DNA from: Arthrobacter sp. 9AX
Lineage (GTDB): Bacteria; Actinomycetota; Actinomycetes; Actinomycetales; Micrococcaceae
Assembly: GCF_902506095.1 (NCBI RefSeq)
Contig: NZ_LR733293.1
Location: 4,197,476 to 4,261,475, forward strand
Direction of reading: 5' to 3'
Length of the DNA stretch: 64,000 nucleotides
The notes below the pieces were generated by a model. That model searched no databases. It saw only the letters and a list, made by a program, of their open reading frames with translations, and was not told where the DNA came from. Every line of letters begins with the position of its first letter. Position 1 is the first letter of the stretch. Both the position numbers and the translations under genes were made by a program. This document shows positions 1-23,957 of this stretch, one piece after another.

Positions 1-520
1 GATCGTGTCCATGAACGGCGCACCCGGTGCCCTGCCAGGACGTCGTCGAGGGCGTCCCTGAGCCATTGGGCATTCTGTTCGGGAACTTCGTGGTCGGCGT
101 CGGGTGCACCGCGGTAGACCAGGGTGCCGGAGCCGTCGAGAACGAAGACGTCAGGGGTGACTTTGGCTCCCCAGTCTTTCGAAACCATCTGGTCTTTATC
201 GCGCAGGTAGTGGCTGGCCATCTCGCCGGCGACGACCCTCTTGTCCATTGCGGCGAGAGAATCGGCCGGGTACTTTTCAGAATCATTGGCATTGATTTGC
301 AGGAAGGTGACCCCACAGGGGAGTAATCCCCAATAACTGTTTGGATGCGGTCGTGCCATGCCAGTGCGTAGGGACAGGGGTTGCATGTCCACACCAGGAC
401 CGTTGCCGGCGCCGCGGAGGGGTCGAGCGTCACGTTCCCGCCCCCTGCACGGGGAAGGGTGAACGGCTGGACGGTCTCCCCGACCTGGTAATGGCGGTAC
501 GTCACTTCATTGGAAGTCAT
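1..520 (-). pseudogene. thioredoxin-family redoxin, frameshifted, 3' end outside window
   Basis: The reading begins at ATG 520 with a GGAGAG Shine-Dalgarno and carries a CNPCPYALAWHDRI segment with a CxxC redox motif, as in small AhpC/TSA-like thioredoxin proteins. After residue 68 (DYSP) the frame is lost. The family continuation (GVTFLQINANDSEKYPADS, then TPDVFVLD, YRGAPDADH and NAQWLRDALDD) runs on in another frame to the window edge. One missing base between 317 and 316 would restore DYSPRGVTF, so this is a single-base deletion or a sequencing error. It follows the sugar permease genes on the same strand and may be the last gene of that transcript. The family assignment is firm; whether the gene is truly inactive is not known. 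Confidence 0.75.
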
Positions 521-590
521 TAATGCACTCTCCATGCGGGACGGGCGGGGACGAACGGTCGCAGACCCGCCGGCCGCATTGCGTCGATAA

Positions 591-1427
591 TTAGCTCTTG
601 ATCCCGCCGGCAAAGCCCTGGATGAACTTTTTCTGCGCAACCAGGTAGAACGCCAGGATTGGAATCATGGAAAGAATCACTGCACCGAAGATGACGTTCC
701 ATTTGGAAACCTGCTCCCCCACAAACCCGTACACGACAACCGGGAGTGGGGCGTTTTGGGACCCGCTCAGGAAAATCAACGACGTGAAAAAGTCGTTCCA
801 GATGATCATTCCGCACAGGATCGCGACGGTTCCGGTGGCAGGGCTCAGCAAAGGGAAGACAATCCGCCGGAACGTCTGGAACGGGGTGCTGCCGTCCATT
901 TGAGCGGCTTCTTCGTATTCCCTTGGCAATGCTTTAGTGAAGCCGGTGTAGAGGAAGACCGACAACGGCATCAGGAGTCCGCTGTACAGAAGGATCATCC
1001 CCAGATGCGTCCCGACGAGACCGAAATTGCGCATCACTACATAGATCGGAACCATACCGAGCTGGAAGGGGAGGATAATTCCCAGGACGAACATGCCATA
1101 GAGCAGTCCGGTGATGCGTCCGGGAATACGGGTGATCGTGTAGGCGGCGATCGATCCGAACGCGATGAGTGTCAGCAGGCTGCCGCCGGTGATGATGATG
1201 CTGTTGAGCACGCCGGCGGGGATGTTCCGGGTCGGCGAACCTGACCACGCCGCTTCGATGCCCTCCATTGAGAGCTGGGGCGGAAGAGCCATTGCCGAGG
1301 TATTAAGCGCGTCCACGTCGCTTTTCAATGCGGTGTTGACCAGGAAGTAGAAGGGCAGCATCAACAGCAGGGCGGCGAGAACTACCAGGCCTTCTCTGGC
1401 CAGGGTCTTCTTGTCGTAGCGATTCAT
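591..1427 (-). CDS. carbohydrate ABC transporter permease (MalG type)
   Basis: A 278-residue inner-membrane permease, the second of a pair. An N-terminal membrane helix (residues about 13-33) is followed by further hydrophobic segments. The EAA loop, EYEEAAQMDGSTPFQTFRRI, lies around residues 170-190 and is the contact site for the ATPase. The length is standard for MalG/UgpE-like CUT1 permeases. It starts one base after the stop of the upstream permease, so the two are co-transcribed. No ATPase gene is nearby; CUT1 importers in actinobacteria commonly share an MsiK-like ATPase encoded elsewhere. Substrate inferred from context: a glycoside or sugar linked to the divergent catabolic genes. 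Confidence 0.92.
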   Translation of the reverse strand: MNRYDKKTLAREGLVVLAALLLMLPFYFLVNTALKSDVDALNTSAMALPPQLSMEGIEAAWSGSPTRNIPAGVLNSIIITGGSLLTLIAFGSIAAYTITRIPGRITGLLYGMFVLGIILPFQLGMVPIYVVMRNFGLVGTHLGMILLYSGLLMPLSVFLYTGFTKALPREYEEAAQMDGSTPFQTFRRIVFPLLSPATGTVAILCGMIIWNDFFTSLIFLSGSQNAPLPVVVYGFVGEQVSKWNVIFGAVILSMIPILAFYLVAQKKFIQGFAGGIKS

Positions 1428-2434: not shown

Positions 2435-3745
2435 TTAGCCCCAGGCTGAGTCCATGGACTGCAGGACCTGGTCGATGGACGCCTGCCCAGTCAGCAGCCC
2501 CTGTACACCGACGCCGAGCGCGGTGTAGACGTCTCCGTTCGGCCAAAACAGGTTGGCCAGCGGCGCGTTCTTCTTGGGGTCAGTCAGGTACTCCTCAATT
2601 CGGGAATAGCGCTCATTGCTGACAGCTTCGCCGGACTGGACGCTGGCCAGGGACACGTTGCCGGTCAAGGATGCGAACTTGTTGAGCTGGTCCTTCTGCT
2701 CCCAGAACTTGAGGAAGGTCTTGGCTGCATCAACGTTCTTGCTGGCCGCGTTGATGCCGAGCGCGTTGGTGGGTGAAGCGAAAACGAATTCATCGGAGGC
2801 GGATTTCCCCGGGAATGCAGCGGTACCAAATTCCGCGTTGGGGTTGATGCTTGCCAGGTCCGCGGCTGAGCCGCCAGGGCCGAAGAAGGACAACGACTTT
2901 CCGGAGGACACTTCATTGAAGAGCGTGTCGAACGTGCCGCCCTCAGCCCCGTCCTGGAAGCATTCGTTCGTCTTCAAGTCGAGGATGGCCTGCAGCGTGT
3001 CCTTCCAACCCTGGGTGTCAGCGAAGCTCACCTTGCCATCAGTTCGTTTGGTGTTCCAGTCAGGGTCCTGCGCGTAGACGCGGGTCGCGGCCAATTGAAG
3101 GGCCATGATGCCCGTGTTGGGAGGTGTCGTTCCCGAGAGGGTGATCAGGCTGTTCTTACCGGCATCGCGCACGGTTTTGCACTGTTTGAGAACGTCGGCG
3201 AACGTCGTCGCCGGCTCCAAACCGAGCTCCTGGTACGCGGTTTCGTTGATGATAGACGGGATCGGTGCCACATCCAACGGGACTCCGACGAGCTGGTTGT
3301 CGACGTAGTAGATGTTCTTGGCGCTGTCGGGAACAGCTGCGGCAGCCCAATCTTCTCCGGAGAGGTCGACGAGCTGCCCGGCCTGTGCATACAGGCCAAG
3401 GGAGTTCGGGTTGCCCGTTCCGGGAGAACCATAGATCAGGTCAGGGGCGTTGCCGGCCTGCAGCTGGGTCTTAATCGTCTGCGCGTACTGCTCGTTCGGG
3501 TATTCCGTCAGCTCTACTTTGATGTCGTCGCTTTGCTTGTTGAATTCGTCGACAATCGTGCTGTACGGCTTGGTTTCGTTTGTCTGTGTCTGGACGGCGA
3601 TTTTGAGGGTAACGGGCCCCCCGTTTGCTCCTGAGCCAGCGCTGCTACCTGAGGAGCAGCCGGTGAGAAGGATTGATCCGGCGACCGGAATGGCGGCGAT
3701 GGCTGCGGCCTGCCGCCAAAACCGGCCCAAGGTTGGCTGTGTCAT
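2435..3745 (-). CDS. ABC transporter sugar-binding lipoprotein
   Basis: A 436-residue extracytoplasmic solute-binding protein of family 1. A signal peptide ends in the lipobox LLTGC with Cys30 as the lipidated residue, followed by a flexible Ser/Gly linker. The mature part reads as a bacterial extracellular binding protein (VTLKIAVQTQTNETKPY, later GNAPDLIYGSPGTGN). It captures substrate outside the membrane and hands it to the two downstream permeases. It is the first gene of this minus-strand operon, and 150 bases separate its start from the end of the LysR-type gene, leaving room for a promoter. No residue pattern fixes the ligand; a glycoside is inferred from neighbours. Confidence 0.92.
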   Translation of the reverse strand: MTQPTLGRFWRQAAAIAAIPVAGSILLTGCSSGSSAGSGANGGPVTLKIAVQTQTNETKPYSTIVDEFNKQSDDIKVELTEYPNEQYAQTIKTQLQAGNAPDLIYGSPGTGNPNSLGLYAQAGQLVDLSGEDWAAAAVPDSAKNIYYVDNQLVGVPLDVAPIPSIINETAYQELGLEPATTFADVLKQCKTVRDAGKNSLITLSGTTPPNTGIMALQLAATRVYAQDPDWNTKRTDGKVSFADTQGWKDTLQAILDLKTNECFQDGAEGGTFDTLFNEVSSGKSLSFFGPGGSAADLASINPNAEFGTAAFPGKSASDEFVFASPTNALGINAASKNVDAAKTFLKFWEQKDQLNKFASLTGNVSLASVQSGEAVSNERYSRIEEYLTDPKKNAPLANLFWPNGDVYTALGVGVQGLLTGQASIDQVLQSMDSAWG

Positions 3746-3895: not shown

Positions 3896-4804
3896 TCAAC
3901 TCAGCTGTTGGGCGGTTATCCTCAACTGGCTGCGGAGCCAGGTGTGGCCGGCGTCCGCGCCGCCTCGGGGCGACCAGATCATCAGTTCGTGAATGGAAGC
4001 GATGTGGACGGGTGGCTGGAGAATCTTGAAGTGGGCGTCCGGTAGGAGCAGATCCGCGAGCCTCCGCTGGATGATGGTGTACATGCGTGTCCCCGGCAGC
4101 AGGAAGGGCGCCACCACGAAGGATTGGGCAACCATGGATGTGTTGCGGGGAATATGGGCCTCGTCCAGGCGCTGGTCTGCCAGCGACGGCAGCGCCCCCT
4201 GGCTCGCGGCCAGGTAAGGCAACGTGCTTAGCTGATCGGCTGTCAGAGAATCGCCCACTTCCTTATTTCCGATATCCGTGGCACATACGAAGTCGTCTTC
4301 AAAAAGACGTTCCCGGTGGAACGGGGCGTTTATTGGGAGCAGCTCTGCGGGGTAGATCGCAAGGTCGACTAACCCTTGACGTAACTGCTCCAGAAACTCA
4401 GCTCCAATAGGTGACACCCGGACGCTCACCGTCGGCGCCACAACGGCAAGCCGTTCAATGAGTTTGCGCAACAGGACCAGCGAGACGTAGTCGCTCGTGA
4501 CGATGGAGAAGACCCGCTGCGACCTCCCGGGATCAAACTCTGCCGTCGAATGAAGCAACTGTTCGACATCCCTGAGAGCTTGGGTAAGGGGCTCCTGAAG
4601 GGACTCGGCGAACGCCGTTTTGCGCAGTCCCCGGCCCGACCGCACAAGCAAGGGGTCCCGAAAGGATGTGCGCAACCGCGACAGCGTTGCGCTCATGGCA
4701 GGTTGGCCGATGTGCAGGCGCTCTGCGGCCCGGCTAACGCTTTCTTCCGCGAGCAGCGCGTCCAACGCGACCAGCAGGTTCATGTCAAAACTAGCGAGTT
4801 CCAA
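3896..4804 (-). CDS. LysR-family transcriptional regulator
   Basis: A LysR-type activator/repressor. The N-terminal winged helix (VSRAAERLHIGQPAMSATLSRLR) is followed by a periplasmic-binding-like effector domain to the end, about 302 residues in total. I chose TTG 4804 because an AAGGGAG Shine-Dalgarno sits 6 bases upstream and the protein then begins MELASFDMNLLVALDAL, the usual NodD-like opening. The open frame extends to ATG 4864, and ATG 4783 is also possible. It lies divergent to the catabolic operon at 4951, the classic arrangement for a LysR regulator of an aromatic pathway, and a T-N11-A palindrome lies between them. Inducer unknown; the aglycone or a ring-cleavage intermediate is plausible. 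Confidence 0.9.
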   Translation of the reverse strand: MELASFDMNLLVALDALLAEESVSRAAERLHIGQPAMSATLSRLRTSFRDPLLVRSGRGLRKTAFAESLQEPLTQALRDVEQLLHSTAEFDPGRSQRVFSIVTSDYVSLVLLRKLIERLAVVAPTVSVRVSPIGAEFLEQLRQGLVDLAIYPAELLPINAPFHRERLFEDDFVCATDIGNKEVGDSLTADQLSTLPYLAASQGALPSLADQRLDEAHIPRNTSMVAQSFVVAPFLLPGTRMYTIIQRRLADLLLPDAHFKILQPPVHIASIHELMIWSPRGGADAGHTWLRSQLRITAQQLS

Positions 4805-4950: not shown

Positions 4951-6120
4951 ATGACGATCAACAAGGTCCTCATCGTGGGAGCCGGCATAGGCGGCCTGGC
5001 AGCAGCAGCGGCCCTGGGACAGCGCGGTGTTGAAGTCGACGTAGTAGAGATCCGTGAAACGGCCACCGTGCTGGGAGTAGGAATCAATCAGCCGGGCAAC
5101 TCGCTGCGCGCCTTGCGCGAGCTGGGCGTCCTCGACGAGGTCCTGGCGGCCGGGTTCACCTTCGACGGCAACGACTACCGCGACGCCGACGACGAACGCA
5201 TCGTGCTGGTGCCCTCGTCCCTGGGACAGGACGATGTGCCGGCGAATTGCGGCCTGACCCGAAAAGACCTGCACGCGATCCTGCTGAAGGCCGCCGAAAG
5301 CGCGGGGGCCACCATCCAATACGGAGCTGAAGTTGCCGATTTCAGTGAAGACGCTGATGGGGTGGACGCCACGTTCAGCAACGGAGAGAACGGCCGCTAC
5401 GATCTCGTCGTTGCTTTCGACGGCATCCGCTCCCCCATGCGCCGCCGGGTCCTTGGCCAGGAACTAGTGCCCAGCTACACCGGAAGTGCAGTCTGGCGTA
5501 AGCAGGTCCCGCGTCCGGCAAGCGTTACTCGTACCATGCTTTGGCAGGGTGAGGGAGTCAAGGGCGGAGTCATTCCGCTGTCGGAAACCCACATGTACAT
5601 GCTTCTGGTGACCGTCGAGCCGAGTGATGTCCGGCATCCGGAGCAGGACCTGGCCCCGCTGCTCAAACAGCGCCTGAGCGGGTTCAAGGGCTTGCTGGGA
5701 GACATCCGTGACTCGCTCGATGAAGATCCGGACGGAATCGTCTATAGCCCCCTCGTTGAAATGAATGTTCCACTCCCATGGCACCGGGGACGGGTCATCG
5801 TCCTGGGCGACGCCGTCCACGCCGCTGTCCCGCACCTGACACAGGGCGCTGCGATGGCTGTCGAGGACGCCGTCGTACTCGCCGATGAACTGCAGCGGGA
5901 CCGGCCCCTCGAAGAATCCCTGCAGGTCATAGAACAGCTTCGCCACCCGCGCACCGAACTCGTGTTCCAGGCATCCCACGGCATTTTGGCCCAGGAGCAA
6001 ACCATCACAGCCGAGACACTTCCGTTTGCCATTGATGGCATGCGGGCCCACCTTGCGGAACAGACCGCCCATGTGGAAGCCGTCTTGAACCAGCCGTTCC
6101 GCGCTTTACAACACCAGTAG
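4951..6120 (+). CDS. FAD-dependent aromatic monooxygenase (PHBH fold)
   Basis: A 389-residue single-component flavoprotein hydroxylase. The N-terminal dinucleotide fold GAGIGG (residues 10-15) ends at Glu33, which binds the ribose. The second FAD motif is VLGDAVHAAVPHLTQGAAMA followed by VEDA, at roughly residues 284-308. This is the salicylate/4-hydroxybenzoate hydroxylase class, which uses NAD(P)H and O2 to hydroxylate phenolic rings. ATG 4951 has an AAGGAG Shine-Dalgarno. It is the first gene of the plus-strand operon and is followed 17 bases later by an extradiol-type dioxygenase. Inferred role: ring hydroxylation of the aglycone before cleavage. It is not of the GMC family of known FAD C-glycoside 3-oxidases. 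Exact substrate unknown. Confidence 0.88.
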   Translation: MTINKVLIVGAGIGGLAAAAALGQRGVEVDVVEIRETATVLGVGINQPGNSLRALRELGVLDEVLAAGFTFDGNDYRDADDERIVLVPSSLGQDDVPANCGLTRKDLHAILLKAAESAGATIQYGAEVADFSEDADGVDATFSNGENGRYDLVVAFDGIRSPMRRRVLGQELVPSYTGSAVWRKQVPRPASVTRTMLWQGEGVKGGVIPLSETHMYMLLVTVEPSDVRHPEQDLAPLLKQRLSGFKGLLGDIRDSLDEDPDGIVYSPLVEMNVPLPWHRGRVIVLGDAVHAAVPHLTQGAAMAVEDAVVLADELQRDRPLEESLQVIEQLRHPRTELVFQASHGILAQEQTITAETLPFAIDGMRAHLAEQTAHVEAVLNQPFRALQHQ

Positions 6121-6137
6121 AAAGAGCACCCAAGACC

Positions 6138-7175
6138 ATGAACACCCCGCTGAGCCAGATCGCGTACCTTGAAATTGCGAGCCCGGACACTTCACTTTCC
6201 GCACGTTTCTACACCGAGAAGTTCGGAATGCGCATCGTCGACCAAATCGACGACACGTACTACCTCCGGTGCTGGGGAGACCACCACCGCTACAGCCTCG
6301 TCATCAGCCCCGGCGAAGACGCTGCTCTGAAGACCATGGCGTGGCGGACCACCAGCGCCGCTGCTTTGGACGAAGCCGTTGAACGCATCGAAGCCATGGG
6401 CGACGTCACAGGCCAGTGGTCGGACGCCGGCGTCAGCCACGGTCGTTCCTACAGCTTCAATGGCCCCCTCGGGCACAACATGACCCTGCTCTGGGATTTC
6501 GAAGTTTACGAGGCCGACGAAGAGCACCGGTCGGTCTTCCCCGACCGTCCCGAAAAGCGCAGCAGCCACGGCGCAGCCCCCCGGTTCCTGGACCACGTCA
6601 CCATCGCCGCCACCGACGTAAAGCGTTTCGCCGAGTGGTACTCGAAGGCCCTCGGCTTCCGCATCATGGCGTTCACCGAACTGGAAGAAGCACCCATCAC
6701 AGTGTTCGGTGTCCTCACGACCAACGAAAAGTCCCACGACCTGGGCATCGTGCTGGATACCTCCGACACAGCCGGGCGCGTGCACCACATCGCATTCTGG
6801 GTCGACCACCCCGAGGACCTGGTCCGTACTGCCGACCTGATGACCGAAAACGGCGTGCCTATCGAATACGGTCCCTCCATCCACGGCATCGGCGAACAGC
6901 ACTACCTCTACTTCCGTGACCCCAGCACCCTGCGCGTGGAACTGAACTCCGGCGGCTACCGCAACTATGTTCCCGACTGGGAAGCCCGCACATGGAAGCC
7001 CTCACAGGGATCGAACAACTTCTTCCGCAACTGGAACATGCCCGACTCCATGATGGAAGCCTTCCCGGCCGCCGCGGGCAAGACGGCAACCGAACAGGGT
7101 GCCTCCCCCGAACTCACCGAAGAACTCCTCAACCCCTGGTCGACGACAACGGATGCCAAAGTGACCCACCGATGA
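6138..7175 (+). CDS. two-domain extradiol-type (VOC) dioxygenase
   Basis: A 345-residue protein with two vicinal-oxygen-chelate modules (about 5-125 and 148-275) and a 70-residue C-terminal tail. The type I extradiol ligand set is visible in the second module: His153 (FLDHVTIAA), His217 (VHHIAFWVD) and Glu268 (LRVEL). The signature HYLYFRDP (255-262) supplies the conserved second-shell His and Tyr. This supports an Fe(II)- or Mn(II)-dependent ring-cleaving dioxygenase acting on a catechol or hydroxyquinol-like product of the preceding monooxygenase. The tail is longer than in catechol 2,3-dioxygenase. Its stop overlaps the next start (ATGA). Substrate remains inferred. Confidence 0.88.
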   Translation: MNTPLSQIAYLEIASPDTSLSARFYTEKFGMRIVDQIDDTYYLRCWGDHHRYSLVISPGEDAALKTMAWRTTSAAALDEAVERIEAMGDVTGQWSDAGVSHGRSYSFNGPLGHNMTLLWDFEVYEADEEHRSVFPDRPEKRSSHGAAPRFLDHVTIAATDVKRFAEWYSKALGFRIMAFTELEEAPITVFGVLTTNEKSHDLGIVLDTSDTAGRVHHIAFWVDHPEDLVRTADLMTENGVPIEYGPSIHGIGEQHYLYFRDPSTLRVELNSGGYRNYVPDWEARTWKPSQGSNNFFRNWNMPDSMMEAFPAAAGKTATEQGASPELTEELLNPWSTTTDAKVTHR

Positions 7176-7948
7176 AACTGATTGACCTGTCCATCTCCAT
7201 GGACAACGAGATCCCGGCAGACCCGCCGTTCCAGCGGCTGAACATCGAGTACACCCACCACAAGGAAGGGGCCGAGGCCATCGCCGGCCTCTTCCCCGGG
7301 CTGGAGACGACCGACCTTCCGGACGCACTCGGCTGGGCCGTGGAGAAAGTGACCCTTTCGACGCACAACGGCACCCATGTCGACGCACCCTGGCACTATC
7401 ACCCGACGATGAATGGCGGCGAACCTGCCGCCACCATCGATGAACTCCCGCTGGACTGGTTCTACCGTCCCGGCGTCAAACTCGATTTCCGCAGCATGCC
7501 CGACGGGTACGTCGTCACCGGCGAAGACCTGCAGCGCGAGCTCGACCGGATCGGCTACCAGCTCAAACCGTACGACATCGTCCTGATGAACACCGCCGCA
7601 GGAGCTGCTTACGGCGACGATGACTACATCAACCGTGGCTGCGGTTTCGGGCGTGAGGCCACGCTGTTCCTGACCGAACGCGGCATCCGCGTTGTCGGCA
7701 CGGACGCCTGGAGCTGGGATGCACCCTTCAGCTTCACCGCTGCCCGATACGCCGAAACAAAGGACCCCTCGATCATCTGGGAAGGCCACAAAGCCGGAAT
7801 GGAAGCGGGCTACTGCCAGATCGAAAAGCTGCACAACCTGGAGCAACTGCCAGCAACCGGCTTCACCGTGTCCTGCTTTCCCGCGAAGCTCAAGCGGGCT
7901 TCCGCGGGTTGGACCCGGGCTGTCGCCATTGTGGAGGAAACAGCATGA
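7172..7948 (+). CDS. cyclase-family metal-dependent hydrolase
   Basis: A 258-residue protein starting at the ATG that overlaps the dioxygenase stop. It holds the cyclase/kynurenine-formamidase metal motif HNGTHVDAPWH at residues 65-75. The family hydrolyses amide, ester or lactone bonds using two metal ions held by this motif, and members often sit in aromatic degradation operons. Inferred role here: opening a lactone or hydrolysing an acyl intermediate after ring cleavage. Longer upstream reading in the same frame overlaps the dioxygenase gene and is not expected to be translated. The stop overlaps the following gene by four bases, indicating translational coupling. Confidence 0.88.
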   Translation: MKLIDLSISMDNEIPADPPFQRLNIEYTHHKEGAEAIAGLFPGLETTDLPDALGWAVEKVTLSTHNGTHVDAPWHYHPTMNGGEPAATIDELPLDWFYRPGVKLDFRSMPDGYVVTGEDLQRELDRIGYQLKPYDIVLMNTAAGAAYGDDDYINRGCGFGREATLFLTERGIRVVGTDAWSWDAPFSFTAARYAETKDPSIIWEGHKAGMEAGYCQIEKLHNLEQLPATGFTVSCFPAKLKRASAGWTRAVAIVEETA

Positions 7949-8403
7949 ACCAGCACGACGAAAAACTGTTCAAGCTGCTCTTGGACGAACGGGAAATCTC
8001 CCGTCTGCTTATCAGGTTCTCCCGCTGCATCGACACAAAGAACTTTGAAAAGTACGCCGAACTGTACGCCGCAGATGGTGAGCTCCGCACCCCCTGGGGC
8101 GGACACAGCGGCCGTGAAGGCCTGGCCGAGCACGTCCGCCGCGACCTCGGCAAGTATGAGGGTCTGCACCATGTCAGCGCAGGCCACTCCATCGACGTCG
8201 ACGGTGATACCGCCCAAGTACGCGCGACGCTGCTGGCCACCCACGTCACGAATGACACGGGCACCGAGTTCTGGAGCGTCGGAGGCCACTACGACATAAA
8301 CCTCAAACGCATAGACGGTGCCTGGAAACTCCGGGTCGTGGAGATCCACCCAACTTGGCGGTTTGATACCTCCCCCACCACAGAACAGGAAGAATCACAA
8401 TGA
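7945..8403 (+). CDS. SnoaL/NTF2-like protein
   Basis: A 152-residue protein of the NTF2-like superfamily. An N-terminal helical segment (LLLDEREISRLLIRFSRCID) leads into the cone-shaped alpha+beta fold, with the typical elements YAELYAADGEL, GREGLAEHV and GLHHVSAGHSI. Members include polyketide cyclases, small hydrolases, isomerases and subunits of ring-hydroxylating dioxygenases. Asp and His residues in the pocket could be catalytic, but no reaction can be assigned. ATGA overlaps at both ends place it firmly inside the aromatic-degradation operon. A subunit-like or isomerase role on a ring-derived intermediate is inference. Confidence 0.82.
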   Translation: MNQHDEKLFKLLLDEREISRLLIRFSRCIDTKNFEKYAELYAADGELRTPWGGHSGREGLAEHVRRDLGKYEGLHHVSAGHSIDVDGDTAQVRATLLATHVTNDTGTEFWSVGGHYDINLKRIDGAWKLRVVEIHPTWRFDTSPTTEQEESQ

Positions 8404-9227
8404 GCGTCATCCTGACAGTGGCAACCACAGGCCCGATTGCGACCAAAGCCGACAATCCAGCGTTGCCCACACAGCCCGAGGAGATCGCCAACGCGGTAGC
8501 CGCGGCCTACGAACGCGGCGCCGCCGTGGCCCACATCCACGTGCGCGACGCCCAGGACCGGCCCACCGCTGATCCGGCCATCGCCCGGCGGGTCATAGAC
8601 CTGATCCAGGAACGTTGTCCCATCCTCATCCAGCTCTCCACAGGCGTTGGCCTGTCGGTGCCGTTTGAAGACAGGGCAGGGCTTGTCGAATTGCGGCCAG
8701 CCATGGCCACCCTGAACCCATGCTCCATGTCCTTCGGGGCAGCGGAGTTCCGTAACCCACCCAAAGATGTTGAGAACCTGGCCCGCCGGATGCAGGAACT
8801 GGACATCAAGCCCGAACTGGAAATTTACGACACAGGCCACTTGGAGGAGTGTCTGCGGTTACGTGACCGTGGGCTGATCAGCGGCCGCCCCCAGTTCAGC
8901 ATCGTCCTCGGAGTGCGCGGCGGGATGGCCGCCACCGCCGAGAACCTTGTCACGATGGTCAACCGGCTCCCCAACGACGCAATCTGGCAGGTCATCGCCA
9001 TCGGCAGGAAAAACCTTGAGCTGACGGCCATGGGCCTGGCCCTGGGTGGAAATGCACGCGCCGGGCTGGAAGACACCCTCCACGTGGGTCACCGGCAACT
9101 CGCGGACGGAAACAATCCCCTGATCGAACGCGCCGCAACCTTGGTCCGTGCACTGGACCGGGAGGTATCCACCGTCGAAGAAGCCACCGTCACGCTTCTC
9201 GAAAACCGCACCCCGGCGGAAGTCTGA
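8400..9227 (+). CDS. BKACE-family beta-keto acid cleavage enzyme (DUF849)
   Basis: A 275-residue TIM-barrel enzyme of the 3-keto-5-aminohexanoate cleavage family. It opens with TATGPIATK-like residues (TVATTGPIATKADNPALPT). The zinc-binding HIHVRD (45-50) is conserved, as is the remainder of the barrel. BKACE enzymes condense a beta-keto acid with acetyl-CoA to give acetoacetate and a CoA ester. Inferred role: last step of aglycone side-chain or ring-fission product breakdown. It overlaps the NTF2-like gene by ATGA. A strong hairpin directly after it (9239-9288) separates it from the deglycosidase genes. Confidence 0.9.
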   Translation: MSVILTVATTGPIATKADNPALPTQPEEIANAVAAAYERGAAVAHIHVRDAQDRPTADPAIARRVIDLIQERCPILIQLSTGVGLSVPFEDRAGLVELRPAMATLNPCSMSFGAAEFRNPPKDVENLARRMQELDIKPELEIYDTGHLEECLRLRDRGLISGRPQFSIVLGVRGGMAATAENLVTMVNRLPNDAIWQVIAIGRKNLELTAMGLALGGNARAGLEDTLHVGHRQLADGNNPLIERAATLVRALDREVSTVEEATVTLLENRTPAEV

Positions 9228-9238
9228 CCACCGCCACT

Positions 9239-9288
9239 TTCACCATCCGGCCCCAACCAACCTGTGGGACCGGGGCCCGGATGGTGAA
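9239..9288. terminator. mid-cluster hairpin
   Basis: A 16-bp stem with one bulged C: left arm TTCACCATCCGGCCCC, right arm GGGGCCCGGATGGTGAA, loop about 17 bases. It lies between the BKACE gene and the deglycosidase beta-subunit gene. No U-tract follows, so partial termination or mRNA processing/stabilisation is as likely as full termination. Confidence 0.55.
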
Positions 9289-9343
9289 CAGGGGCACGGC
9301 CCACAGACCTCTGCAGTTCCACCTACCCGAAAGGACGGCGCCC

Positions 9344-9745
9344 ATGACGTTCGCTGGCACCTTCATCGTCGAGGACTCGCTCCAGGCCGACGATCAGAAA
9401 CTGAAATACAAGATCCGCCTGCCCTGGTACCGGAGCCTTCCGCTGTCCTCCGTCACCAACCTTGAGGTCGGACTCGACGGAGTCCCCGTCGACAGCAAAA
9501 ACCTCCGAGTGGAACTGAACGGCAAGATTCTATCCCTGGAGGAATTCGAGCCGCTCTGGGACGAATACTGGTTCGTCCAGGACAACGCCACCATCCTCAT
9601 TGAGGGACATCCCGCACTCGGCGACGCTGTCGAGGTTCGGACCCGGATCAACCTGCGCAGCCCGTACATCATGGTTGCCCCGGACCAGCCCCTGATCACC
9701 AACACTGACGTCACCACCACCTTCCCGGTGAAGGGAGCCAACTGA
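9344..9745 (+). CDS. C-glycoside deglycosidase beta subunit (DUF6379)
   Basis: A 133-residue all-beta protein matching the small subunit of bacterial C-glycoside deglycosidases (DgpC/CarC class, DUF6379). Seen features: FAGTFIVEDSL at the start, LPWYRSLPLSSV near residues 26-37, GHPALGDAVEVRTRI around 88-102 and a C-terminal TFPVKGAN. In characterised complexes this beta-sandwich subunit packs against a TIM-barrel alpha subunit and completes the active site that breaks the C-C bond of 3-oxo-C-glycosides. ATG 9344 was chosen with AAGGA upstream; a longer frame from 9281 runs through the hairpin. The stop overlaps the next start by one base, and that next gene encodes the alpha subunit. The family match is from memory. 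Confidence 0.85.
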   Translation: MTFAGTFIVEDSLQADDQKLKYKIRLPWYRSLPLSSVTNLEVGLDGVPVDSKNLRVELNGKILSLEEFEPLWDEYWFVQDNATILIEGHPALGDAVEVRTRINLRSPYIMVAPDQPLITNTDVTTTFPVKGAN

Positions 9746-10791
9746 TGGCCACCACCCAGCCCCCCCAGCAGCCAAAGCTCGGCTTGACCTTCTATTCCCT
9801 GACCAACGAATGGGTCAGCGGGAAGTACGATCTTGAGTCCCTCGTCAAGAGAGTCGCTGAGGCCGGCATCGGCCCAGGTGTGGAAATTGTCGGCTTCGCC
9901 ACGATCCGCAGCTTCCCCGAAGTGTCCAGCGATTTCGTCAAATCCTGGCGTGATCTCCTGGACAAGTACGAGCTGGAGCCATCGTGCCTGGCAATCAACA
10001 TCGACAGTGCCCTGCGACGGGACCGGATGCTGACCGAGGACGAGGCGGCAGACTATCTGCTCCGCCAGCTTGAATCCGCCCATAAGCTGGGGTTCCCAAC
10101 GGTTCGGACCCAGATGGGCGCAACACCCGGAGTCATTGCCAAGGTCGTCCCCACTGCTGAGAAGTACGGGATCAAGATGGGCATGGAAATCCACGCACCT
10201 GAAGGCGCCGCCAGCCCGAGCGTTTTGCGCGTCCGCGAGGCCTACGAGAAGATCGGCTCGCCCGTGCTCGGATTCACTCCCGACTTCAGTTCAACCATGC
10301 ACTCATTGCCGCCAGGGCAAATCGAAGCGTTCATCCGCGACGGCATGGCGCGCGAACTCGTTGCAGATCTGAACGCTGCGTGGCGCCTGGAAGGAACACC
10401 GCTGGACAGGTTCGAGTTCTTCGCCGAGGCAGCCGCCGCAAAAGGTTATCGCCGCAACTCAATCGCCCACGTCCAAATGGGCTTCAACATGTTCGGGCGG
10501 GAAGCTGTCGAATCCTGGCAGGACATCCTGCCCCAGGTCGTGCACGTACACAGCAAGTTCTACGAAATCGACGAAGCCGGAAACGAGCCTTCCATCGATG
10601 TCCCCCGCATCATGGAGCTCCTCGTAGACGGTGGCTACACCGGCTACGTCTCCAGCGAGTGGGAAGGCCACGTCTTCCGCGAGGCCAACGAGGTCGATCC
10701 GATCGAACTGATCCAACGACACCACCGCCTTGAACGCCGCGGCATCGAAGCGGCACTGCAAAAGCAGCAAAAACACCAGGTCTCCGCCTAG
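9745..10791 (+). CDS. C-glycoside deglycosidase alpha subunit (TIM barrel)
   Basis: A 348-residue sugar phosphate isomerase/epimerase-like barrel with the opening LGLTFYSLTNEW and internal RTQMGATPG. Candidate Mn-binding residues follow the family order: Glu148 (GMEIHAPEG), Asp180 (FTPDFSS), His267/269 (VHVHSKF) and Glu305 (SSEWEGH). The DUF6379 beta subunit immediately upstream, sharing one base, identifies it as the alpha subunit of a C-glycoside deglycosidase rather than a plain isomerase. In known systems the 3-oxo-C-glycoside is cleaved by beta-elimination, giving the free aglycone and 1,5-anhydro-hex-1-en-3-ulose. Substrate range cannot be told from sequence. The pairing is the strongest functional clue in the island. 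Confidence 0.87.
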   Translation: MATTQPPQQPKLGLTFYSLTNEWVSGKYDLESLVKRVAEAGIGPGVEIVGFATIRSFPEVSSDFVKSWRDLLDKYELEPSCLAINIDSALRRDRMLTEDEAADYLLRQLESAHKLGFPTVRTQMGATPGVIAKVVPTAEKYGIKMGMEIHAPEGAASPSVLRVREAYEKIGSPVLGFTPDFSSTMHSLPPGQIEAFIRDGMARELVADLNAAWRLEGTPLDRFEFFAEAAAAKGYRRNSIAHVQMGFNMFGREAVESWQDILPQVVHVHSKFYEIDEAGNEPSIDVPRIMELLVDGGYTGYVSSEWEGHVFREANEVDPIELIQRHHRLERRGIEAALQKQQKHQVSA

Positions 10792-10837
10792 GAGACCACG
10801 TCGTCCAACGACTGAAACCAACCCGAAGGGCACCACC

Positions 10838-11977
10838 GTGTTTGAACCGTTCCCCGGAAACTATGTCTGGAACCTGTCAACCAATATCGCGCTAAATACC
10901 GGAGCGCAACTCAACGAAGTACTGGATGCGATCCGTCCTGTCATCGAGCGGGCATCCGAGGGGGACGACGCCACCGAGGCTTACCTTGAGGCCTACGAGC
11001 GGCTCGGCGATCGAATCGCCGAACTCGCCGACGAAGACCTGCTCGCCGGAAACGCCTTGTCAGCCTCGGACAAATACGAGCGTGCCGCCGTTTACTACCT
11101 CACCGGTGAACGCATGCAGCGGATCGGCTACGCACCACGCGAACGGGTTTACGACAAGATGCTCAGTTCCTTCGATGCGTTCCTCGCCCACACCGACGCC
11201 CCGGCCGAACGTGTGGAAATCCCCTTCGGCGACACAGCATTCCCAGGCATCTTCTACCGCTCACCGCTGGCCGGGGACCGCTCCCCCGTTATCGTGCATG
11301 TCAACGGTCTGGACTCGACCAAGGAAATGATCTATGGCGCACCGCTACGGAACGAACTTGCCCGGCGCGGAATCTCGATGCTCATGGTCGATCACCCGGG
11401 TACCGGGGAAGCCCTCCGCCTGCGCGGCTTGACCGCCCAAGTGGAAAGCGAAGCATGGGGCGGGGCGTGCGTTGACTACCTTGAGTCACGCCGTGACGTT
11501 GATCCGGAACGGATTGGAATCGTAGGCTGGTCCCTGGGCGGGTACTACGCGCCGCGCGCCGCAGCCTTCGAGAAACGCTTCAAACTGTGCGCATGCTGGG
11601 GAGCCAACTATAACTGGGGCGAACTGCAGCGCAGGCGGGCCGAACGCGAAGGTGAAAACCCTGTACCCCACTATTGGGAGCACGTCCAGTGGGTCTGGGG
11701 CAAAGGCTCCTTCGAGGACTTCATGAAGTTCGCACCGGCTGTGACACTCGAGGGCGTCGTATCCGAAATCACGGTTCCATTCCTCGTCACCCATGGCTCC
11801 GGGGACCGGCAGATCCCGCTCGAATACGCCTACGCCCAGTATGAGGGGGCCGTGAAAAGCCCTGACCGTGAGCTGAAGATCCTCACGGAACGCGAAGGCG
11901 GCATAGAGCACGTCGGCGGGGACAACATGCTGGCTGCCTCCTCGATCATCGCTGACTGGGTCGCCGCCCGGCTATGA
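10838..11977 (+). CDS. alpha/beta hydrolase of the FrsA/2,6-dihydroxypseudooxynicotine hydrolase type
   Basis: A 379-residue hydrolase beginning at GTG 10838 with a GAAGGG Shine-Dalgarno. A helical N-terminal cap of about 120 residues precedes the fold. The catalytic triad is visible: Ser232 in GWSLGGYYAPR, Asp323 in GSGDRQIP and His358 in GGIEHVGGDN. This layout matches the C-C-bond hydrolase family that includes the nicotine-pathway enzyme of Arthrobacter. These enzymes cleave an aryl-ketone or acyl side chain from a hydroxylated ring. Inferred role: removal of an acyl chain or hydrolysis of a ring-fission product of the aglycone. An esterase is the alternative. Confidence 0.85.
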   Translation: MFEPFPGNYVWNLSTNIALNTGAQLNEVLDAIRPVIERASEGDDATEAYLEAYERLGDRIAELADEDLLAGNALSASDKYERAAVYYLTGERMQRIGYAPRERVYDKMLSSFDAFLAHTDAPAERVEIPFGDTAFPGIFYRSPLAGDRSPVIVHVNGLDSTKEMIYGAPLRNELARRGISMLMVDHPGTGEALRLRGLTAQVESEAWGGACVDYLESRRDVDPERIGIVGWSLGGYYAPRAAAFEKRFKLCACWGANYNWGELQRRRAEREGENPVPHYWEHVQWVWGKGSFEDFMKFAPAVTLEGVVSEITVPFLVTHGSGDRQIPLEYAYAQYEGAVKSPDRELKILTEREGGIEHVGGDNMLAASSIIADWVAARL

Positions 11978-12008
11978 CAACGAAAACACAGCCGAAGATC
12001 AGTTTCCC

Positions 12009-13049
12009 ATGACAGTCCCCGTAGGGGTGATCGGTTACGGGATGAGCGGGCGACGTTTTCATGTTCCCCTCATTAAGGCGACGAAGGGTCTGACGCTGTG
12101 CGCCATCATGACCCGGACCCCAGACGCCGCAGCTCAAGCAAAGGCAGAGCATCCGGAGGTCACGGTTGTTTCAAACATCGATGAGCTCCAGGCTTCCGGG
12201 GCTGTGCTCGGCGTAGTCGCAACCCCGGACGCAACCCATTCAACGCTGGCGGCGGTCCTCATTGAGCGTGGACTCGGCGTCGTCGTCGACAAACCCTTGG
12301 CGACGTCGGCCGCTGCCGGGCGACGGTTGGTAGACGCAGCAGCGGCCGCAGGGGTCCTGCTTACCTCCTTCCAGAACCGCCGGTGGGACTCCGATTACCG
12401 GACGGTTCTGAAGGTCATCAACAGCGGGGTCCTCGGAGACATCACCCGGGTCGAATCGAGCTTGGCCCGCTGGTTCGTGCCGGATGCCTCCACCTGGCGG
12501 GGAAGACCAACCGATGGGGTGCTGGCAGGAAGCCTCGGCGGCTTTGGCAGCCACCTGGTGGACCAGATGATTGCCGCGTTCGGCCGGGTCGAGCACGTCT
12601 ACGGCGAGGTTGCTGCACGGCACCGGCAGTCCCTTGTCAACGATGATGTCTTTCTCGCCCTCCGCCACGCCAGTGGAGTTAGCAGCCACCTGATCATGGG
12701 CACTGCCCTGAGCGGTGAACGCCCGCGTTTCATGCTCCAAGGCACGCGGGGATCCTTCACCAAATTCGGCTTTGACGGTCAGCAGGAGTCCCTCATGCAG
12801 GGCAGGGATCCGCTGAGTAAGAATTGGGGCCAGGAGGCGAAAGACTGTTGGGGCCACCTGACCATTGACGGGAAGAGGACCCTGCTTCCCTCCGAGCACG
12901 GTGATTGGCGTCAATTCTATGTAGGGTTGGTCGGCGCCCTTGAAGGGGATCATTCGCTCCTCGTGGATCCGAGCGAAGTCGTCCATTCGCTGGAAGTCCT
13001 GGAAGCGGGGGCCTTGTCCGAGCGAACCCGTCAAGTCGTGAGCGTCTGA
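12009..13049 (+). CDS. Gfo/Idh/MocA-family oxidoreductase, candidate C-glycoside 3-dehydrogenase
   Basis: A 346-residue NAD(P)-dependent oxidoreductase. The N-terminal Rossmann motif is GVIGYGMSG (6-14); DKPLA with Lys95 replaces the family EKP motif; GFGSHLVDQ carries His182 and Asp185 in the catalytic region. In the gut puerarin pathway, DgpA of this family oxidises the sugar C3 hydroxyl before the deglycosidase acts. No GMC-type FAD oxidase is encoded here, so this gene is the best candidate for the oxidation step. It could equally reduce the released keto-sugar. It begins 31 bases after the hydrolase stop, in the same operon. Confidence 0.88.
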   Translation: MTVPVGVIGYGMSGRRFHVPLIKATKGLTLCAIMTRTPDAAAQAKAEHPEVTVVSNIDELQASGAVLGVVATPDATHSTLAAVLIERGLGVVVDKPLATSAAAGRRLVDAAAAAGVLLTSFQNRRWDSDYRTVLKVINSGVLGDITRVESSLARWFVPDASTWRGRPTDGVLAGSLGGFGSHLVDQMIAAFGRVEHVYGEVAARHRQSLVNDDVFLALRHASGVSSHLIMGTALSGERPRFMLQGTRGSFTKFGFDGQQESLMQGRDPLSKNWGQEAKDCWGHLTIDGKRTLLPSEHGDWRQFYVGLVGALEGDHSLLVDPSEVVHSLEVLEAGALSERTRQVVSV

Positions 13050-13196
13050 GTCCCGGCGCCTCCTCTACACCAGTCCGACCAGCCACCGCTTATCCCCTGC
13101 CATTGAACGCCCTTGCACTGACCGCATACCCGGCCGCCTTCAAAGTTCGGGGCGCGCGCCTTCGAGCTACAACAAACCCTTGTTCCAGGAGGACCG

Positions 13197-14213
13197 ATGA
13201 CTCCGACCCCGAACACCTTGGCAGCCCCGGATTGGGCTGTCACCATGTTCTCCTTCACTAATGAGCTCATACGAGGAGAGCGAACCCCTCTGCAGCTCGT
13301 CGAAGCACTGCTCGATGCACAGGTCACCGACCAGATTGAAATTGATGCTCCGCAGCACTTTGTCAGCTACCCCCGCATCAATGCCACAGAAGCCTCGGAA
13401 TTGCGCCGACTCATGGAACGCCGTCAGGCCCGCTTGAGCATATTAGGGATATACAACGATGCAGGCAGCAGAAAAGACTACCGTTTCACGCTCGACCAAG
13501 CAGAGGCGTATTTGGCGGATCAGATCCGTGCAGCCTCGGAAATGGGCTTCAGGGCCACCCGCATCATGTTCGGCGTGGACGCCCCCCTCCTGAAACGGAT
13601 CGCAGTTCATGCCGAAAGCTACGGCTTACCGGTCCTGCAGGAGGTCCAGGGCGTGATCAGGCCAGATTCGCCCGAATTTGTACGGCAAATTGAAACCCTC
13701 GATCAAATCGGTAGCGACAAACTCGGATTCGTTTTCGACCTCAGCGCCTGCATGGCGGGCCTTCCCGTGACCTACCTTGAAAGTCTTCGCCGTGAGGGTA
13801 TCCCCACAAACGTCGTCACCTACCTGGAACAGGCATGGCACACGGAACCGGCAGCACGAGTACAGGAACGCCTGGAGCGTCTGACAGCAGATCTGAACCT
13901 CAACGCGGCCACCATGGCACGCCTTGGGATGCCTTTTGGCAGGTTCGGGCATTCCCAGGTCAGCGACTGGCGGGAACACCTCGGCCGATTCAGCGCCATT
14001 CATCTGAAGTACTGGGACTTGTTCGATGAAGACCATCGGGTCTCCAAGCCCATAGCCGACTTACGGCGTGAGTTCGGAGCGATTAACTATAAAGGGATTG
14101 TCACAAGCGAATGGGGCGGCCACGAATGGTCCAGCCCTGAAGACGGTACCCCAATCGAAATGTCCCTAGGGCATCGTGCCCTGTACGACGCATCTCTGTT
14201 CGCCACGGACTAG
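13197..14213 (+). CDS. second TIM-barrel isomerase, paralogue of the deglycosidase alpha subunit
   Basis: A 338-residue sugar isomerase/epimerase-like barrel. Its layout follows the 9745 protein: FSFTNELI versus YSLTNEWV at the start, and metal ligands at matching places, Glu149 (VLQEVQG), Asp181 (FVFDLSA), His269 (AIHLKYW) and Glu305 (TSEWGGH). It has no adjacent DUF6379 partner. It may share the beta subunit, act on the released anhydro-keto-sugar, or epimerise a sugar intermediate. It starts 147 bases after the dehydrogenase stop, behind a GGAGG-type Shine-Dalgarno (caggaggaccgATG). Divergence of body sequence shows the duplication is old. It is the last intact gene before the transposase/HNH debris. 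Confidence 0.85.
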   Translation: MTPTPNTLAAPDWAVTMFSFTNELIRGERTPLQLVEALLDAQVTDQIEIDAPQHFVSYPRINATEASELRRLMERRQARLSILGIYNDAGSRKDYRFTLDQAEAYLADQIRAASEMGFRATRIMFGVDAPLLKRIAVHAESYGLPVLQEVQGVIRPDSPEFVRQIETLDQIGSDKLGFVFDLSACMAGLPVTYLESLRREGIPTNVVTYLEQAWHTEPAARVQERLERLTADLNLNAATMARLGMPFGRFGHSQVSDWREHLGRFSAIHLKYWDLFDEDHRVSKPIADLRREFGAINYKGIVTSEWGGHEWSSPEDGTPIEMSLGHRALYDASLFATD

Positions 14214-15370: not shown

Positions 15371-16312
15371 TCAATCGGCTCCGGGAAGGTTCACTTCCAC
15401 GAGGCCGCCGGTGACACGGGTTTCGAACCGGGGCTGCCGGGAGGTGGCCGGACCTGCCTGTACCTCGCCCGATCGCAGGGAGAAGGTGCTGCCGTGCCAA
15501 GGACACACCACACAAGGTTCGCCACCACCGGCACCATCGGCACCACCGCCACCGCTGCCTGAGCCATGCGCCGGGCTGCCCGCTGCCAGGCTGCCGCCCT
15601 TGAGCTTGCCCTCGTGCAGTGGGCCGGAGAGGTGGCTGCAGACGTCGGACAGGACACTCACCGACTCCGACTCGCGGAACACCAGCAGCGGAATCCCTGC
15701 CACAACGCGCTGGTGGAGCTTCCCGTCCGGCAGGTCCTCCAACGGCCCGAGGGGCTGCCACCCACTCGGGAACCGGTGCGGGACATCCTCGGTGTGGTTT
15801 GCGCCGGCAGCCTGCCGGTAGCTGAGGTGCCCGCCCAGGAAGCCGCCAAAGCTGACCACTCCCAGGCCCAGATAAGCCAGCGCCTTGCCCGCATCCTGCC
15901 GCCCCCGGGTACGCGCCACCAACGACGCCGTGTAGAGGCCCACAGCGGTGATGTTGGCTGTCGCATGGACCAATCCCACGCGCTGCTGCTGGGGGTGCAG
16001 CTGCGACCAATCCATAAACCCGGCCACGGCGGACGGCACAGCGGAGGCGCTTCCCACGCCGATCAGCACAGCGGATGCCTTGCCGTTCCCAGGAAGCGCA
16101 TCGAGGACCGCAGCAGAAATCCAGGCACCCAGCGGCACCTGCACGGCCAGTGGATGAACCGGGTGACCGATGGGGACTCCGTGCAGGACGTCCCGGGCCC
16201 ACTGCGGTCGGATGGTGCGTTTGACCAGCTTTCGGACCTTCTTGGCCAGGGGATCCAGCCAGTCGGCATCCTCCAGCCGGGTAACAAGCTCAAGTGCAGG
16301 CAGCGGTTTCAT
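15371..16312 (-). CDS. DUF2231 membrane protein with C-terminal Rieske [2Fe-2S] domain
   Basis: A 313-residue fusion. Residues about 40-165 form a DUF2231 membrane domain with four hydrophobic helices. Residues 180-313 form a Rieske domain with ligands Cys225-x-His227 (CSHLSGPL) and Cys270-x2-His273 (CPWHG). The segment between the ligand pairs is unusually long, about 42 residues, and contains a Gly/Ser-rich stretch (240-265). It probably transfers electrons at the membrane for an oxygenase or quinone partner. It is convergent with the HNH remnant. The function is only class-level. Confidence 0.88.
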   Translation of the reverse strand: MKPLPALELVTRLEDADWLDPLAKKVRKLVKRTIRPQWARDVLHGVPIGHPVHPLAVQVPLGAWISAAVLDALPGNGKASAVLIGVGSASAVPSAVAGFMDWSQLHPQQQRVGLVHATANITAVGLYTASLVARTRGRQDAGKALAYLGLGVVSFGGFLGGHLSYRQAAGANHTEDVPHRFPSGWQPLGPLEDLPDGKLHQRVVAGIPLLVFRESESVSVLSDVCSHLSGPLHEGKLKGGSLAAGSPAHGSGSGGGGADGAGGGEPCVVCPWHGSTFSLRSGEVQAGPATSRQPRFETRVTGGLVEVNLPGAD

Positions 16313-20074: not shown

Positions 20075-20141
20075 CTTGTTCCCCAGCCACCTGTTCCGCA
20101 GCCACCCGCCGCTCGTTTGCCAGCGGCCTCGACCGTTCCCC

Positions 20142-20171
20142 TTGACTCCTGCCCCGCACCTTCCCTACACT
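20142..20171 (+). promoter_or_regulatory. hyi operon promoter
   Basis: TTGACT at 20142 and TACACT at 20166 are separated by 18 bases, a good vegetative -35/-10 pair. The predicted start of transcription falls at the first operator repeat, about 90 bases before hyi. Confidence 0.6.
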
Positions 20172-20207
20172 TTTCATAAAGCAGAATCTAAATTCCACAA
20201 AGCGGAA
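20172..20207. promoter_or_regulatory. tandem IclR-type operators of the hyi operon
   Basis: Two 15-bp sites, TTTCATAAAGCAGAA (20172) and TTCCACAAAGCGGAA (20193), lie in direct orientation 21 bases apart, centre to centre two helical turns. They begin immediately after the -10 box, a position suited to repression. Related single sites occur upstream of dctA and uraD. No IclR gene is in the window. Confidence 0.6.
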
Positions 20208-20267
20208 ACGGTAGTAAACCGGGAAGCAGGGGAAGATAGATCAAAGCCCTCCTTGGAAGGACCTACG

Positions 20268-21068: not shown

Positions 21069-21106
21069 CCGGTGGTTGAGCCCGTCGAAATCCGCTCAAC
21101 CACCGG
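21069..21106. repeat. dispersed hairpin repeat
   Basis: Perfect 12-bp arms CCGGTGGTTGAG / CTCAACCACCGG around the loop CCCGTCGAAATCCG, directly after the hyi stop. The same words (gacgggctcaaccaccg, reverse orientation) recur in the hairpin at 55442. It fits a small interspersed palindrome common in Arthrobacter relatives and may stabilise the hyi mRNA end. Confidence 0.6.
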
Positions 21107-21137
21107 CACCACCACCAGACTTAGAAAGAGAACCATC

Positions 21138-22016: not shown

Positions 22017-22147
22017 ACACCAGCGCCCAAGGCGCCCAAGAAACACGAGCAGGCCACCCGCCGTCGTACATGAAAACGACGGCGGCCCCCTCACCACACC
22101 CAAAAACACCAGACTTCGCCCCAAAGGGGCGCAACAAGGAGCACACC

Positions 22148-23926
<1,779 letters not shown>

Positions 23927-23957
23927 AACCTGCCCGCCCAGAACAGGAAAGACAACC

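Follow-up and report, generated by a model that had tools for sequence, protein, structure and literature searches.

We report that a stretch of 64,000 nucleotides from Arthrobacter sp. 9AX (contig NZ_LR733293.1, our C5:4197476-4261475, in a host genome of 4.43 Mb), referred to below as the window, carries a C-glycoside deglycosidase (CGD) gene pair inside a run of genes for aromatic ring opening. C-glycosides are resistant to ordinary glycosidases. The coupling of CGD and ring-opening genes is real and recurrent as gene linkage, and we consider it reasonably likely that the locus serves the catabolism of an aromatic C-glycoside, probably of flavonoid type, whose A ring would be opened by meta-cleavage. 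The gene identities, the active-site residues of the CGD and the recurrence of the linkage are read directly from the DNA.

Families were called by comparison with Pfam, NCBIfam and the sequences of the PDB. Between positions 4951 and 14213, ten genes follow one another in one direction on the forward strand, mostly with 4-bp overlaps or short gaps, and a regulator and an importer lie divergently:

4951 to 6120, forward: class A flavin monooxygenase (P0001), proposed hydroxylase of the aglycone A ring (PF01494, NF005313, motifs)
6138 to 7175, forward: type I extradiol dioxygenase (P0002; PF00903, TIGR03211, ligand residues)
7172 to 7948, forward: cyclase-family metal hydrolase (P0003; PF04199, match to isatin hydrolase A)
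7945 to 8403, forward: SnoaL-like protein (P0010; PF13577, SnoaL_4, 101.7 bits)
8400 to 9227, forward: beta-keto acid cleavage enzyme (BKACE, P0004; PF05853 at 295 bits, HIHVR motif)
9344 to 9745, forward: CGD beta subunit (P0005; PF19906, match to AgCarC2)
9745 to 10791, forward: CGD alpha subunit (P0006; match to AgCarB2, metal and catalytic residues)
10838 to 11977, forward: alpha/beta hydrolase (P0007), proposed C-C hydrolase (PDB 2jbw, motifs)
12009 to 13049, forward: Gfo/Idh/MocA oxidoreductase (P0008), proposed keto-sugar reductase (GFO_IDH_MocA, YvaA)
13197 to 14213, forward: CGD-alpha-like barrel (P0009) without the catalytic His and Glu (match to AgCarB2 at 2.7e-33)
3896 to 4783, reverse: LysR regulator, divergent (PF00126; a 54% relative lies beside the Subtercola ring module)
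2435 to 3745, reverse: solute-binding protein of a sugar ABC importer (SBP_bac_8; a 37% relative lies in the Deinococcus gene run)
1429 to 2397, reverse: first permease of the importer (PF00528)
591 to 1427, reverse: second permease of the importer (PF00528), after which the same strand runs on past the start of the window

The hydroxylase and dioxygenase genes are separated by 17 bp, and the dioxygenase, cyclase, SnoaL and BKACE genes each overlap the next by 4 bp. A gap of 116 bp precedes the CGD beta gene, which overlaps the alpha gene by 1 bp; the remaining gaps measure approximately 45 bp (CGD alpha to hydrolase), 31 bp (hydrolase to Gfo) and 147 bp (Gfo to barrel). Probable starts, assigned by eye, are 7172 (cyclase), 7945 (SnoaL), 9344 (CGD beta), 10838 (hydrolase, GTG) and 4783 (LysR). 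The CGD genes are situated within the run of ring genes, between the BKACE and hydrolase genes. A preliminary description of this DNA had proposed a single co-directional run of ring-opening and CGD genes with a LysR gene and a sugar ABC importer lying divergently. Gene calls and spacing bear out the run, the matches to PF00126, SBP_bac_8 and PF00528 agree with the divergent genes, and every gene named was recovered in its place by Pfam, NCBIfam or PDB matches. The SnoaL-like P0010 is an additional operon member, absent from that description. Consensus scans returned 2 promoter-like sites, with 2.0 expected from shuffles, and 7 terminator-like sites, with 10.1 expected.

P0006 matches the crystallised AgCarB2 (7dnm_A) at 6.8e-94 over 329 residues and exceeds the Pfam cut-off for AP_endonuc_2, while P0005 matches AgCarC2 at 3.4e-15 and the CGDB family (PF19906) at 47.9 bits, with a cut-off of 27.6. 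Five metal ligands and two catalytic residues have been named for AgCGD2, with mutants made in homologs (PMC8563793). P0006 keeps all five ligands (E147, D179, H269, K271 and E305 in AgCGD2 numbering) and both catalytic residues (H149 and E307 in the same numbering). By family, residues and adjacency, P0005 and P0006 are a CGD pair, as had been proposed; a chance resemblance was considered and is ruled out by the whole-protein E-values, the cut-offs and the residues. The pair shares its alpha plus beta composition and its metal and catalytic residues with AgCGD2, CarBC and PurBC of Arthrobacter, Microbacterium and Paenarthrobacter, and differs from them in being embedded among ring-opening genes. 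Most genus relatives possess a CGD alpha that is approximately 45% identical to P0006. The residue alignment, which leaves out matches shorter than 200 residues, has gaps in 2 sequences at four of the seven columns and in 3 more at the Y17 column only. Gln occupies the H269 metal-ligand position in 13 CGD-alpha-like sequences of this alignment (L153 12960-13877, and one each from L027-L031, L034, L037, L038, L041, L084, L087 and L122).

Among the ring-opening enzymes, P0001 scores 114.9 bits with FAD_binding_3 (PF01494) and 398 bits with NF005313 (cut-off 372), and displays the motifs GAGIGG and GDAVHAAVPHLTQG. Glyoxalase (PF00903) matches P0002 in two stretches and TIGR03211 does so at 237 bits, under its equivalog cut-off of 320; residues H153, H217 and E268, which we take from the general pattern of the family to be the His-His-Glu iron ligands of a type I extradiol dioxygenase, are invariant across 6 aligned sequences. 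P0003 scores 131 bits with Cyclase (PF04199) and 44 bits with isatin hydrolase A. Pfam assigns P0007 to Peptidase_S9 and FrsA-like families. Its best PDB match is 2,6-dihydroxy-pseudo-oxynicotine (DHPON) hydrolase (2jbw, 7e-18), followed by a yellowish-green 1-like protein, enzymes that presumably act on C-C bonds of aryl ketones or polyketides, and its GWSLG, HGSGD and EH motifs appear by eye to be compatible with a Ser-Asp-His triad.

The recurrence of the coupling was assessed in 150 genomes of the genus. Of these, 31 (the window's own genome included) match CGD alpha in full, after leaving out 4 of 35 genomes (G037, G048, G067 and G099) with partial matches near 1e-19. An ortholog of the dioxygenase is present in 46, matches at 29-35% identity having been excluded as another subfamily, and 29 genomes possess both. 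The dioxygenase thus occurs in 29/31 CGD genomes and in 17/119 others (Fisher 7.6e-17, a value that is overstated since this test, like that for the order, takes related genomes as independent). In 24 of the 31 CGD genomes the two genes lie at most 25 kb apart, mostly at 18-25 kb; when P0009-type barrels are counted as CGD, 26 genomes have a pair within 25 kb, mostly at 14-22 kb. Of the other seven, G007 and G095 lack the dioxygenase, G137 (184 kb) and G016 (more than 540 kb) have the genes far apart, and G119 has them on contigs too small for a distance to be measurable; when distances are taken to a CGD alpha other than the P0009 type, the separation is 27.7 kb in G057 and the genes fall on different contigs in G071. 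Among 17 loci read around dioxygenase genes, 13 also encode a hydroxylase 35-40% identical to P0001 and 4 do not. In A. globiformis NBRC 12137, the species from which AgCGD originates, a run of dioxygenase, FAH, cyclase, hydroxylase, FAH and SDR genes shares a 79-kb contig with CGD genes, a P0009-type barrel plus CGD beta lying 15 kb away and a CGD alpha 19 kb away. On the plasmid NicSoilB11, where a GMC oxidase gene and a CGD pair occur with a rhamnosidase gene, the 25 kb read yielded no match to ring genes. Across 396 genomes of the order, with up to 5 candidates scored per genome, the dioxygenase was found in 27, CGD in 14 and both in 11 (11/14 CGD genomes, Fisher 5.2e-12), and 4 of these 11, including the window's own, have the genes within 25 kb. 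The preliminary description had suggested looking for the same gene order in other Micrococcaceae; the linkage of CGD and dioxygenase recurs in the genus, and the ten-gene order as a common arrangement is rejected, having been seen in none of the neighbourhoods read.

A wider survey covered the best 80 of 201 named relatives of the dioxygenase, several at loci with flanks shorter than 10 kb. The flanks encode a member of the hydroxylase family at 71 loci, a P0007-type hydrolase at 19, a GMC oxidase at 13 and a CGD-alpha-like barrel at 11. Three of these 11 (L147, L155 and L169) have a P0009-type barrel only, and L165 has that barrel with a weak 24% match. The cyclase count, 3/80, is an underestimate, as the P0003 query misses distant cyclase-family genes such as that of L110, which Pfam found. 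In Sinomonas atrocyanea, the genes for the dioxygenase, a GMC oxidase and a CGD-alpha-like protein with Gln at the H269 position are consecutive. On plasmid pDAETH-1 of Deinococcus aetherius (NZ_AP026561.1, 359-372 kb), almost the whole set is present on a single strand: a solute-binding protein, two permeases, CGD alpha (30% identical to P0006, with all seven residues kept), CGD beta and a GMC oxidase, together with the dioxygenase (59%), a cyclase (45%), an FAH-family protein, a P0007-type hydrolase (54%), a flavoprotein and the hydroxylase (40%). This run has in common with that of the window an importer, a CGD pair and a GMC oxidase as well as the dioxygenase, cyclase, hydrolase and hydroxylase. 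It differs in gene order and in its FAH-family gene, and the 30 kb read contained neither a BKACE nor a SnoaL match at 1e-5. No paper on the pDAETH-1 gene run is among the literature matches listed. Being from a different phylum and in a different gene order, it constitutes the strongest independent support for the coupling.

The closest ring module among the best 80 of 201 relatives belongs to Subtercola (hydroxylase 58%, dioxygenase 70%, cyclase 73%, hydrolase 71% and LysR 54% identical), in which the P0001 relative is beside the dioxygenase gene and the P0003 relative follows it; near modules occur in Herbiconiux and Georgenia. The closest relatives of the ring module (Subtercola and Herbiconiux) are thus different from that of the CGD pair (G095). 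We also note that a plasmid of Rhizobium rhizogenes K84 (L088) encodes, within a span of 14 kb, a hydroxylase (42%), a dioxygenase (40%) and a hydrolase of the P0007 type (51%), together with an FAH-family protein and with no CGD match, so the ring module is also present in Alphaproteobacteria.

The reverse-strand run of importer genes continues outside the window with a broken redoxin-like gene, a small protein and genes for a GMC oxidase, CGD beta, CGD alpha and a thiolase. The GMC oxidase, P0017, comprises 511 residues, contains PF05199 and PF00732 and finds its best PDB match in PsG3Ox (7qf8, 505 bits); the runner-up, 6'''-hydroxyparomomycin C oxidase (7dve), scores 461 bits, hence the assignment of its substrate is tentative. 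In P. siccitolerans, the 3-oxidase gene is reported to lie beside a CGD pair (PMC10646112). P0017, to be compared with the C-glycoside 3-oxidases PsG3Ox, CarA and PurA, likewise adjoins a CGD pair, and differs in standing on the divergent strand outside the window. The second CGD alpha, P0018, keeps all seven metal and catalytic residues and is 40% identical to P0006. The genome possesses two CGDB-family genes, both in this island, the second lying approximately 11 kb from the window copy; a separate scan of 56 contig stretches with P0006 gave no relatives. The redoxin-like gene, recognised as such by eye (window 1-640 and L001 15422-16116, reverse strand), is spread across two overlapping frames, P0020 holding its start and P0026 its end, which indicates a frameshift or an assembly error. 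Beyond the GMC oxidase and CGD genes lies a GH106 alpha-L-rhamnosidase gene (PF17132, L001 3739-6804) whose product could trim rhamnosyl flavonoids and, divergent from it, MFS-like, MarR-like and alpha/beta-hydrolase-like genes were recognised by eye in L001 up to 9900. Also by eye, an ordinary glyoxylate cluster (hydroxypyruvate isomerase, tartronate semialdehyde reductase, glyoxylate carboligase and glycerate kinase) occupies window positions 20076-25172, and a DUF2231-like membrane part fused to a Rieske-like CxH/CxxH domain is encoded at 15371-16312 on the reverse strand.

The second barrel of the operon, P0009, scores 30.6 bits with AP_endonuc_2, just below the cut-off of 31.1, and is 28% identical to P0006. 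Its kinship to CGD alpha, previously proposed, is upheld by its match to AgCarB2, and it retains the five metal ligands; the catalytic His and Glu are lost, H149 being replaced by Q and E307 by G. The same two substitutions are found in 14/14 P0009 relatives from the fetched loci, identifying the P0009 type as a stable subfamily, which probably catalyses a different reaction from CGD alpha. Structure prediction of P0009 without an alignment gave a mean pLDDT of 44.5, too low for a fold search. In an Agrobacterium operon, a Gfo protein reduces 3-keto-glucose and a barrel is suggested, on preliminary evidence, to be a hydratase (PMC10628242). That operon (AtOGE, AtHYD and Gfo) resembles ours in that a 3-keto-glycoside eliminase is accompanied by a Gfo protein and a second barrel of sugar-isomerase-like type; it differs in acting on O-glycosides by means of an eliminase unrelated in sequence (PMC10628242). 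By this analogy we infer that P0008 and P0009 are concerned with keto-sugar processing, and that P0008 may reduce the released keto-sugar rather than oxidise the C-glycoside.

Several observations weigh against a C-glycoside role for the locus, and two of them favour an ordinary operon for a free aromatic compound, where the CGD pair arrived by accident or serves sugar salvage only, with no link in substrate: the Subtercola, Herbiconiux and Georgenia genomes with the nearest ring modules lack CGD, as do 17/46 genus genomes with the dioxygenase. To these may be added that in 5 of the 24 close pairs in the genus the sole CGD alpha bears Gln at the H269 position; that in 7 of the 11 double carriers of the order the genes are far apart on one contig (3) or on different contigs (4); and that no ring genes occur in the 37 kb read around the closest CGD alpha (G095, 61% identical), its neighbours encoding GMC, MFS and Gfo proteins and a barrel. 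Furthermore, only 4/19 loci with both the dioxygenase and a P0007-type hydrolase have a flanking CGD-like barrel (Leifsonia and Diaminobutyricibacter), and no CGD was found in 7 whole genomes hand-picked from the other 15. Chance insertion is nonetheless improbable in our estimation. The CGD genes are within, and not beside, the run of ring genes, and the linkage is repeated in the genus, in Leifsonia, in Sinomonas, in Microbacterium (as a P0009-type barrel plus CGD beta) and, on one strand, in Deinococcota. Since close ring modules occur in CGD-free genomes, the window operon has the look of a mosaic in which a CGD pair has come to sit within an aromatic operon able to exist alone. As a class, the ring module is not reserved for C-glycosides; for the window and for Deinococcus, the simplest reading is that it acts on the aglycone once released.

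The nature of that aglycone and of the first oxidase must also be considered. In the Variovorax ifc cluster for daidzein, a flavin 8-hydroxylase and a glyoxalase-type dioxygenase of the A ring are encoded together with a DHPON-like hydrolase, and the cluster is similar to the fde genes of Herbaspirillum, which serve naringenin (PMC11069340). The pairing of hydroxylase and glyoxalase-type dioxygenase in one cluster is found in the window operon too, and the set of these two with a DHPON-like hydrolase makes a flavonoid-type aglycone the leading guess. By analogy with fde and ifc, the likeliest aglycones would be of flavonoid type, their A ring being hydroxylated and then opened by meta-cleavage. 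We liken the window set to these clusters and do not claim membership, because Pfam reveals no IfcD-type cupin among the ten operon proteins and the comparison is with published descriptions, not by sequence alignment; a C-glycoside step goes unmentioned for either cluster in the available part of that account (PMC11069340). Against a flavonoid assignment also stand the report that disruption of the DHPON-like gene of ifc left daidzein degradation unaffected, the description of IfcA homologs, in the same partial source, from Proteobacteria only (PMC11069340), and the absence of B-ring genes from the operon; a protocatechuate 3,4-dioxygenase beta gene elsewhere in the genome, above cut-off, could serve a B-ring acid. 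Another polyphenol (a xanthone, dihydrochalcone, anthraquinone or simple phenolic C-glycoside) might be handled by the same enzyme types. Soil CGDs and 3-oxidases accept several aglycone classes, among them carminic acid and flavonoids (PMC8563793) and mangiferin (PMC10646112), and P0007 resembles both DHPON hydrolase and yellowish-green 1. We regard this as possible, if rather unlikely, given that the three-enzyme set is reported for an isoflavone cluster, albeit with a hydrolase dispensable for daidzein, and its first two members for naringenin (PMC11069340). As to the first step, the preliminary description cast the Gfo protein as a candidate sugar-oxidising dehydrogenase. P0008 does share its gene run with the first CGD pair and is matched by P581a DgpA2 at 77.6 bits, which would leave the GMC oxidase to serve the second pair only. 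However, DgpA itself scores 39.5 bits compared with 176.5 for YvaA, an uncharacterised oxidoreductase; in genome G095 a Gfo gene and a TIM barrel come after the CGD pair even with a GMC oxidase at hand; and the analogous Gfo of Agrobacterium is a 3-keto-glucose reductase (PMC10628242). A DgpA-like role for P0008 appears unlikely. With a PsG3Ox-type oxidase on hand just outside the window, Gfo is probably not the first oxidase, and the sugar-oxidising step is better assigned to P0017. The proposal of a complete C-glycoside catabolic locus is borne out in part: it holds for the coupling of CGD and ring genes as linkage, and probably not for Gfo as the initial enzyme.

We infer each reaction of the following route, its order and the aglycone from the genes present. 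The ABC importer would bring in the C-glycoside, or sugars trimmed off it, and the PsG3Ox-like GMC oxidase would oxidise C3 of the sugar. The C-C bond would then be cut by metal-assisted elimination, through one CGD pair or both, yielding the aglycone and a keto-sugar, either 2-hydroxy-3-keto-glucal or 3-keto-glucose, which P0009 and Gfo might process to glucose by hydration or isomerisation followed by reduction. On the aglycone, the flavin hydroxylase would add an ortho hydroxyl to a phenolic ring, which the extradiol dioxygenase would open; the cyclase-family hydrolase and the DHPON-hydrolase-like enzyme would cut the opened product, and the BKACE, with the thiolase encoded outside the window, would pass the leftover beta-keto acid on to CoA metabolism.

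The soil studies characterise, in the portions available, oxidation and C-C cleavage only (PMC8563793, PMC12724307). The earlier statement that known systems stop at the free aglycone is fair for the characterised soil enzymes in these portions, but Paenarthrobacter No. 37 can live on puerarin as its only carbon source (PMC12724307), and in gut Catenibacillus many aglycones are degraded further by reductive flavonoid enzymes (PMC11170127). The individual parts of the proposed route are familiar. Their combination in a single operon is described in none of the literature matches listed, among which no publication joins C-glycoside cleavage with aromatic ring cleavage; the search lay outside subscription journals and supplements. 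We tentatively suggest that aerobic bacteria of at least two phyla may possess one unit leading from C-C cleavage to ring opening, assembled repeatedly as a CGD pair moved into or beside a flavonoid-type operon, in which the P0009-type barrel, with its metal site and with Gln and Gly in place of His and Glu, would be an uncharacterised enzyme of the route. Together with its relatives close to the A. globiformis and P. siccitolerans CGD clusters and with the Deinococcus operon, the window locus provides a concrete gene list for the aglycone steps; it also points to the P0009-type barrel as an enzyme without an assigned role.

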